Below, piece after piece: positions 26,914 to 37,026 of a stretch of DNA of 37,996 bases (positions are counted from its first letter, which is position 1; every line of letters begins with the position of its first letter). The notes below the pieces were generated by a model that saw only the letters and a list, made by a program, of their open reading frames with translations, did not search any database and had not been told where the DNA came from. This DNA comes from Phycisphaerales bacterium (GTDB lineage: Bacteria; Planctomycetota; Phycisphaerae; SM23-33), in assembly GCA_018644725.1 (NCBI GenBank), contig JABGPZ010000035.1, positions 1-37,996 on the forward strand. The letters run 5' to 3'. A program made the position numbers and the translations under genes.

Positions 26914-28008
26914 ATGGCTAAGACTGCAAACCCACCTATTCTTAAGAAAATTGTCGCCGAGGCGAAGATCGTCCGCGACAAGATCAATACCCGCAACAAG
27001 CCGGAAATGAAGTTGCCGATCCGTTCTTTGTCGAACGTGCGCTATCATCCCACCAAGGGTCACTTCCAGCTTCTCGGCAAGAACAAGGTCCGCACGCTGA
27101 CGGTCAACACCGTCAAGACGTTCGCTCAGACTCTCAAGATGCTTGCGATGAGTAAAGACCTCGTGCAAACCGGCCGACACTCGACCAAGCGAGAAGCCTA
27201 CTATCAGGCGTACAACTGGGGCGATGCGTCGTTCAGTGCCCAGGAAGAGTCCGACACCGTCATGGACGACGTCGAGGCGATGCTCGGGGTCAACCGCGAG
27301 CAGATGCACTTCCGCGCGGATGAGCACGGCGGGGAAGTCGCCGGCGAGCTGATCGTGATCGACAAGGACCGCCGCACGAAAAAACCCATCCGCATCGACT
27401 GTACCGCGTTTGGCTCGGGCGCCTATTCCGTACCGACCGTCGTCGAGGATTTGAAGTTCGAGACCAAGGCCAAGTTCGTCCTCGCCGTGGAAACCAAGGG
27501 GATGTTCGAGCGTCTCGTCGAGGAAGATTTCTACGACGAGTACCACTGCATTCTTGTTTCGATGGGCGGCGTGCCCTCGCGCGCGTGCCGGCGATTCATC
27601 CGCCGTCTCAGCGACGAGCAGGACATTCCGGTCTACGTCTTTACCGATGGCGACCCGTATGGCTATTTCAACATTTACCGCACACTCAAGGTTGGCAGTG
27701 GCAACGCCGCACACCTCAACGAATATTTCTGCGTCCCCAAGGCCCAGTTCATCGGCGTCACGCCCGACGACATCAAGACCTACGACCTGCCGACCCACGC
27801 GCTGAAGGACGTCGATATCAAACGCGCCAAGGATGCGATCAAGAACGACCCGTTCATCCAGCATTACAAGCAGTGGCAAAAGGCCGTCCTGAAGATGCTC
27901 AAAATGGGCGTCCGTGTCGAACAGCAGGCCCTCGCCAAGCATGGCCTCGAGTTCGTCGCACAGAAATACCTCCCCGAAAAACTCAAAGCCGGAAAATTTT
28001 TACCGTAG
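26914..28008 (+). CDS. top6A: DNA topoisomerase VI subunit A / Spo11 family
   Basis: This 364-residue protein is the DNA-cleaving subunit of a type IIB topoisomerase. The winged-helix part carries the active-site tyrosine in STKREAYYQAYNW (Y97 likely). The Toprim part has E193 in FVLAVETKGMFERLVEE and the DxD pair D245/D247 in VFTDGDPYGYFNIY. Other landmarks are SGAYSVPTVVEDL and the C-terminal AQKYLPEKLKAGKFLP. The length is close to archaeal subunits. In archaea and most bacteria that have it, top6A is adjacent to top6B, the ATPase subunit; here both neighbours are unrelated. AGGGA precedes the ATG and a strong terminator follows, so it is a single-gene unit. Confidence 0.93.
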   Translation: MAKTANPPILKKIVAEAKIVRDKINTRNKPEMKLPIRSLSNVRYHPTKGHFQLLGKNKVRTLTVNTVKTFAQTLKMLAMSKDLVQTGRHSTKREAYYQAYNWGDASFSAQEESDTVMDDVEAMLGVNREQMHFRADEHGGEVAGELIVIDKDRRTKKPIRIDCTAFGSGAYSVPTVVEDLKFETKAKFVLAVETKGMFERLVEEDFYDEYHCILVSMGGVPSRACRRFIRRLSDEQDIPVYVFTDGDPYGYFNIYRTLKVGSGNAAHLNEYFCVPKAQFIGVTPDDIKTYDLPTHALKDVDIKRAKDAIKNDPFIQHYKQWQKAVLKMLKMGVRVEQQALAKHGLEFVAQKYLPEKLKAGKFLP

Positions 28009-31309: not shown

Positions 31310-31353
31310 GTTTAATATGACAGCGGGAAATGGAAATTGGGTGGAGTAGGCAT

Positions 31354-31431
31354 AAAAAAGCGACGGGAAAGGGAGAAATCCCGTCGCAGGTGGGAACCGT
31401 TCGCCTGAAGGGAGATAAAGGCAAACGATCT
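31354..31431 (-). ncRNA. Candidate small RNA with twin UCUCCCUU hairpin loops
   Basis: A compact transcription unit of about 78 nt with no ORF. The predicted start is 31431-31433. Hairpin 1 has a 9-bp stem CGTTTGCCT/AGGCGAACG (one wobble) around a 12-nt loop (31407-31418). Hairpin 2 has a perfect 8-bp stem GCGACGGG/CCCGTCGC around another 12-nt loop (31368-31379) and ends in six Ts, making it the terminator. Both loops contain the identical octamer UCUCCCUU, the complement of a Shine-Dalgarno-like AAGGGAGA. This is the architecture of base-pairing regulatory RNAs that expose C-rich loops. I recognise no named family. Confidence 0.7.
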
Positions 31432-31437
31432 GTAAAC

Positions 31438-31466
31438 AATATAGCAAGGTGATCGGACAATATCAA
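31438..31466 (-). promoter_or_regulatory. Promoter of the candidate small RNA
   Basis: On the minus strand TTGATA (31466-31461), exactly 17 bp, then TATATT (31443-31438): near-consensus in both boxes and spacing. Confidence 0.75.
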
Positions 31467-31586: not shown

Positions 31587-31618
31587 ATAAAAAAACCCGC
31601 AACGAATGCTACGGGTTC
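31587..31618 (-). terminator. Intrinsic terminator of tRNA-Val
   Basis: On the minus strand AACCCG pairs with CGGGTT around a loop and is followed by a seven-T run, directly after the tRNA gene. Confidence 0.8.
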
Positions 31619-31623
31619 TTGAG

Positions 31624-31697
31624 TGGGCCAAACAGGACTTGAACCTGTGACCTTCCGCGTGTCGGGCGGACGCTCTAGCCAACTGAGCTACTGGCCC
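31624..31697 (-). tRNA. tRNA-Val (anticodon GAC) with C33
   Basis: A 74-nt cloverleaf: acceptor GGGCCAG/TTGGCCC (one G-U), D-arm GCTC/GAGC, anticodon stem TCCGC/GCGGA with loop CCGACAC, T-arm ACAGG/CCTGT with TTCAAGT, discriminator A, CCA not encoded. The loop places GAC at 34-36 (Val). Position 33 is C instead of the nearly invariant U. All stems are otherwise intact. Confidence 0.9.
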
Positions 31698-36830: not shown

Positions 36831-37026
36831 TTGAGGCCTGAAAGGCCGGCCGTCGATAGCCGGGGGCGTAAGCCCCCGGACCCGTGCAGAATTATTCGAG
36901 CCCCGAAGGGGCGGCAGACATTGGGCTGACTATTTATCTGTCGCCCTTTCAGGGCTCAATTGGTTGGGCCGTCTACCGGGGGCTTACGCCCCCGGCTATC
37001 CACTGTCGCGCCTCCGGCGCTGAAAC
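36831..37026. repeat. Cluster of six palindromic repeat modules in inverted order
   Basis: Perfect hairpins lie at 36835-36847 (GGCCTGAAAGGCC), 36860-36879 (CCGGGGGC-GTAA-GCCCCCGG), 36900-36912 (GCCCC-GAA-GGGGC), 36943-36955 (GCCCTTTCAGGGC), 36976-36995 (CCGGGGGC-TTAC-GCCCCCGG) and 37008-37020 (GCGCC-TCC-GGCGC). The right half repeats the left half's modules in reverse orientation, including TTGAG...CTGAAAGG versus its complement and GATAGCCGGGGGC versus its complement. The region from about 36700 to 37149 holds no gene. Its left part (36700-36830) is AT-rich and featureless apart from the tig promoter. Confidence 0.8.

Follow-up and report, generated by a model that had tools for sequence, protein, structure and literature searches.

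A predicted two-copy small RNA family with repeated CU-rich hairpin loops in a Phycisphaerales bacterium

A putative small RNA gene of about 78 nt, composed of two hairpins of which the second is an intrinsic terminator, was identified on the minus strand of the window (the whole stretch of 37,996 nucleotides analysed here), and a diverged paralogue is present elsewhere in the same genome. Compensation in the stems, loops that are nearly unchanged, unrelated flanks, placement behind tRNA genes and terminator tails of the type found in this genome together make it very probable that these sequence signals mark a real small RNA gene family. Both loops of both copies display the same C/U-rich octamer, UCUCCCUU, and it is probable, as a prediction, that the RNA represses by antisense pairing at ribosome-binding sites, through redundant loops and independently of Hfq.

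Promoter, hairpins and terminator

The first-pass annotation had described a near-consensus promoter without stating its strand. The promoter is present and lies on the minus strand (Table 1), with 8 nt between the end of its -10 element and the start of hairpin 1. The minus strand folds with an energy of -32.5 kcal/mol (z = -6.5). Loops of 12 nt had been claimed for both hairpins, which is correct for loop 1, whereas the terminator loop has 10 nt, and the terminator stem, previously given as 8 bp, is 9 bp by folding. The shared octamer stands as described: UCUCCCUU occurs exactly twice in the window, in the minus reading only, once in each loop. The interval had also been described as free of open reading frames, and no conserved reading frame was found in it; the two copies differ by insertions or deletions of 2 nt and 1 nt, and a peptide-coding reading was dropped because the frames shift between them.

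Table 1. Features of the putative RNA gene, its upstream context and its candidate targets. Positions are those of the window.
Feature	Positions	Strand	Evidence or remark
Sigma-70-type promoter, TTGATA-17-TATATT, TG before -10	31438-31466	-	10/12 matches
Putative small RNA gene, ~78 nt, two hairpins	31354-31431	-	Fold z = -6.5; paralogue by DNA search and covariance model
Hairpin 1, 12 bp with wobbles, 12-nt loop UUAUCUCCCUUC	31395-31430	-	Folding; every pair kept in paralogue
Single-stranded linker, C-rich CCACC common to both copies	31388-31394	-	Alignment of the copies
Intrinsic terminator hairpin, 9 bp, 10-nt loop UUUCUCCCUU, then TTTTTT	31360-31387	-	Folding; 9 pairs
Terminator U-tract and genome-typical tail TTTTTTATGC	31350-31359	-	RTG statistics of hairpin-linked T-runs
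tRNA-Val(GAC), own promoter and terminator (upstream context, outside the RNA)	31623-31697	-	
Candidate target L176, membrane protein			AAGGGAGA at SD; 12-nt perfect match to loop 1
Candidate target L202, LRR protein			AAGGGAGA at SD
Candidate target L168, VWA protein			AAGGGAGA at SD
Candidate target L170, M28 peptidase			AAGGGAGA at SD
Candidate target L174, HEPN/AbiU2 protein			AAGGGAGA at SD
Candidate targets L152, L201, L203			AAGGGAGA at SD

A search of 0.71 Mb of this genome for paired hairpins with CU-rich loops, the second running into a terminator T-run, returned just this copy and its paralogue. The same architecture was found neither in 1.29 Mb of related genomes, leaving aside a duplicate of the window among those sequences, nor in the reverse-complement control; its occurrence is far beyond chance. 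In a scan of genomes of the family, pairs of octamers 24-54 nt apart were at chance level against a reversed control, and such pairs form a pair of hairpins only in the two copies described here.

A paralogue with compensated stems

A single RNA had been implied by the first-pass annotation; DNA search and covariance model both identify one further copy in the genome (C102:47226-47306), making this a two-copy family. Weak matches on contig C12 were rejected as copies, since they share only terminator tails. The bodies of the two copies are 88% identical, while their downstream flanks have no significant similarity and the similarity of the upstream flanks is marginal (12, with a mean of 8.3 after shuffling; p ~0.03). 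The promoter of the paralogue is the weaker of the two, the aligned site, read by eye, being CTGACT-16-CACAAT (8/12).

From this copy to the paralogue, hairpin 1 changes from C-G to U-A once and from U-G to U-A twice with no pair broken; inspection by eye adds a change from A-U to G-C in the next pair outwards. The innermost pair of the terminator likewise goes from A-U to G-C, the rest being unbroken. A shuffle control on this compensation gave 139 out of 500, a test that is powerless with just two sequences; structures slid along the alignment have 40-53% of cells paired, compared with 100% for the true structure. In loop 1 one base differs between the copies and in loop 2 one U is missing, the octamer is unchanged, and CUCCCU is present in both loops of both copies.

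Conserved loops on varying stems would also be expected of a protein-binding site, and duplicated sites are typical of sponges, so that the small RNA might be real and yet use its CU-rich loops to bind a protein, such as an RNA-binding protein of cold-shock or S1 type, and not to pair with mRNA. This is an unlikely reading: repeated CU-rich loops are a better match to known antisense RNAs, and a sponge for CsrA in particular is contradicted by the absence of GGA from the loops of the transcribed strand, although CsrA is present.

Genomic context

This copy is located 191 nt downstream of tRNA-Val(GAC), and the second copy approximately 208 nt downstream of tRNA-Arg(ACG); both tRNA genes have their own terminators. 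Both RNA copies thus lie about 200 nt behind unrelated tRNA genes on the same strand (L002:1507-1588 and 1796-1870; window 31354-31431 and 31623-31697).

A nucleoside hydrolase gene (31190-30126) starts 164 nt downstream of the RNA on the same strand, for which the RNA might be a cis-acting leader with an attenuator. This is improbable, because the paralogue has no same-strand gene for several hundred bases downstream, the next gene running the opposite way, and because the nucleoside hydrolase gene has a promoter-like site of its own (31309-31282). Alternative pairings of the two hairpins, as in an attenuator, were also not seen. The presence of two copies, each behind a tRNA gene, and the absence of the sequence from every other genome searched could instead suggest a duplicated terminator-bearing repeat or the relic of a mobile element with no regulatory role. 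A relic is highly improbable, given that the flanks have no convincing similarity, that the changes are compensatory and that the loops are more constrained than the stems; even decay would be expected of a relic.

Strand of transcription

The alternation between U-G and U-A preserves base pairs in a minus-strand transcript only, and both copies end in a terminator with the tail of this genome; together these argue strongly for an RNA gene on the minus strand. A plus-strand RNA that would sequester CsrA through a GGGA in each loop is extremely unlikely. CsrA is encoded, both loops of such an RNA would show AAGGGAGA, and the plus strand of copy 2 folds about equally well. In this copy, however, the plus strand folds worse (-26.9 against -32.5) and the U-G pairs become A-C mismatches on it; it has neither a good promoter nearby nor a T-run, and in each copy it is the minus strand that carries the terminator tail signature.

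Distribution

No credible homologue was found by covariance model in 34 other genomes of the family, in 397 genomes of the class and 392 of the phylum, or in the 25 genomes nearest by SerS, all comparison genomes being from other genera, with no second genome of the same genus in the set. Because the filters were tighter in the large searches, these may have overlooked a very divergent relative. The neighbouring seryl-tRNA synthetase is at most 72% identical to that of the closest Phycisphaerae genomes, in line with a planctomycete host. Nothing comparable follows the tRNA-Val gene in 29 genomes of the family, and no match to the RNA was found in phage and plasmid collections. Since these searches returned no homologue beyond this genome, the RNA is known from this lineage only. 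Lack of conservation in relatives, which had been named beforehand as counting against the RNA, is therefore what is seen between genera and not what is seen within the genome, where the paralogue is conserved.

Several matches were rejected. Covariance matches in L034 (26.8 bits), L115, L116 and L236-L238 (the last three near-identical and from a single genus) were set aside, as none combines the full set of two stems and two loops with a T-run. DNA matches in L003 and L006 are coding-like and due to chance, and a viral contig (L205) matching the hairpin of loop 1 does so in a repetitive, collagen-like stretch.

Comparison with known small RNAs

The diverged paralogue, the compensatory stem changes and the conserved loops support the claim of a previously unnamed gene for a small RNA whose loops repeat a C-rich motif, and in Rfam no family attains its gathering score for this RNA. 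Neither 6C (RF01066) nor RsaE/RoxS matches at E values up to 1. The best sub-threshold shape is LhrC (RF00616), whose model scores 25.8 and 39.4 bits, far short of its cutoff of 110. LhrC is induced by cell-envelope stress through LisRK. The anti-hemB RNA of Burkholderia (RF02837) also has two hairpins, with CUCCCU in the first loop, but its model gives 15.9 bits here, where 49.5 would be needed.

Like LhrC1-5, which are multicopy RNAs of two hairpins with CU-rich UCCC motifs in loop A and the terminator loop and which act at the ribosome-binding site (PMC4132741), the RNA described here has UCCC in both loops, including that of the terminator. In Listeria, both loops of LhrC have been shown experimentally to bind lapB mRNA, with Hfq dispensable (PMC4132741). 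The planctomycete RNA is shorter and from another phylum, and the resemblance is one of shape, probably arrived at by convergence. The alpha-r14 or cuckoo RNAs are similar in presenting a redundant anti-SD motif in several hairpins, independently of Hfq, with stems that diverge while the motif stays (PMC10746234). They are, however, alphaproteobacterial (rhizobia), NfeR1 has three hairpins, and their motif is CCUCCUCCC, which is not found in unpaired regions here, where the loops carry UCUCCCUU. The 6C RNA, or B11, of actinobacteria has two redundant C-rich loops and no known chaperone (PMC10470900); the target of B11 is a run of six G, whereas only three consecutive C are present here, and the combination that marks 6C (two hairpins, at least six C per loop and an Rfam match) is not seen. 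In RsaE/RoxS and other Firmicutes RNAs, UCCC pairs with SD sequences (PMC4132741), as might happen here, although the phylum is different and there is no covariance match. By analogy, a mode of action like that of RsaE, 6C or LhrC is likely; the RNA would be a further example of a known functional kind of regulator, outside the known sequence families.

Seed and candidate targets

Gene-level statistics were taken from a 0.71-Mb sample, 28% of the genome, in which the SD consensus is AAGGAGA, with AGGAG upstream of 42 out of 250 starts and in 0 control segments. The octamer had been called anti-Shine-Dalgarno, and it does fit a rare SD variant, AAGGGAGA, its perfect partner; with the consensus AAGGAGA it pairs only via a bulge, and at ribosome-binding sites it has no advantage over other pyrimidine octamers. 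The mean duplex energy is -3.92 in the 22 nt before starts, compared with -2.64 in upstream and -3.08 in coding controls, and shuffled pyrimidine octamers equal or beat the octamer at ribosome-binding sites. Because the consensus pairing is bulged and shuffled octamers do equally well or better, the RNA has no general anti-SD role and, if it acts at ribosome-binding sites, would select a minority of them. Anti-SD action is plausible, with no specific favour from the duplex numbers.

AAGGGAG occurs at SD distance before ATG 36 times genome-wide, against 16 for the reversed pattern, and about eight candidate genes carry AAGGGAGA at the SD position (Table 1). Several of their products look exported or membrane-bound. 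The 12-nt match in L176 is not significant, with approximately 0.3 expected by our own estimate (17 sites, four loop variants).

The proposed mechanism is that of a trans-acting small RNA, in two copies, in which loop 1 and the terminator loop present one and the same C/U-rich seed. The seed would pair with the Shine-Dalgarno region of mRNAs with AAGGGAGA-like sites, and this pairing would block translation initiation without Hfq. No Hfq was detectable in the genome and CsrA is encoded, which fits an Hfq-free RNA. That the RNA is transcribed, pairs with mRNA in the cell and represses it, and which mRNAs it would target, is inferred from the sequences. A further step would be a planctomycete-specific, Hfq-free family in which one SD base, distinguishing AAGGGAGA from AAGGAGA, defines the regulon and which originated next to a tRNA gene and spread by duplication; this is speculative and at present doubtful.

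Almost no such regulators have been described so far in the planctomycete phylum. In the open-licence literature no paper combining planctomycetes, small RNA and anti-Shine-Dalgarno was found, and for the whole group of PVC bacteria a 2022 survey counts 8 distinct sRNAs (PMC9029176). If the LhrC-like layout evolved independently here, repeated CU-rich loops, including the terminator loop, would be a recurrent Hfq-free antisense solution. The RNA supplies a defined seed and a short list of candidate targets for testing.

Terminator tails and other elements

In the 0.71-Mb sample, RTG directly follows 59 out of 128 hairpin-linked T-runs (ATG 29, GTG 30), against 71 out of 1676 T-runs without a hairpin; in related genomes the counts after hairpin-linked T-runs are 1 out of 46 and 1 out of 12. 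The final G is mostly 8-9 nt after the stem. Examples on the minus strand of the window are at 31359-31350 and near 31590, in the tRNA-Val terminator, and a subset of the tails extends as TATGCCYAC. From its sequence distribution, the RTG tail looks like a lineage-specific terminator element and is perhaps an RNA polymerase pause signal (pyrimidine then G) at the point of release.

Downstream of copy 2 and facing the RNA gene, L146:6445-6900 (+) is a small gene whose product resembles an antitoxin-like DNA-binding protein, with a weak DUF6290 match. In the window, 26914-28005 (+) has a strong match (2e-136), below the curated cutoff, to the archaeal-type DNA topoisomerase VI subunit A, in a bacterial host. 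Two inverted Acido-Lenti-1 RNAs (RF01687) are also present, at 36834-36879 (-) and 36976-37021 (+), each with a palindrome of the type CCGGGGGC-TTAC-GCCCCCGG, and a further copy is at L131:8038-8083; these look like dispersed REP-like palindromes and not a unique RNA gene.
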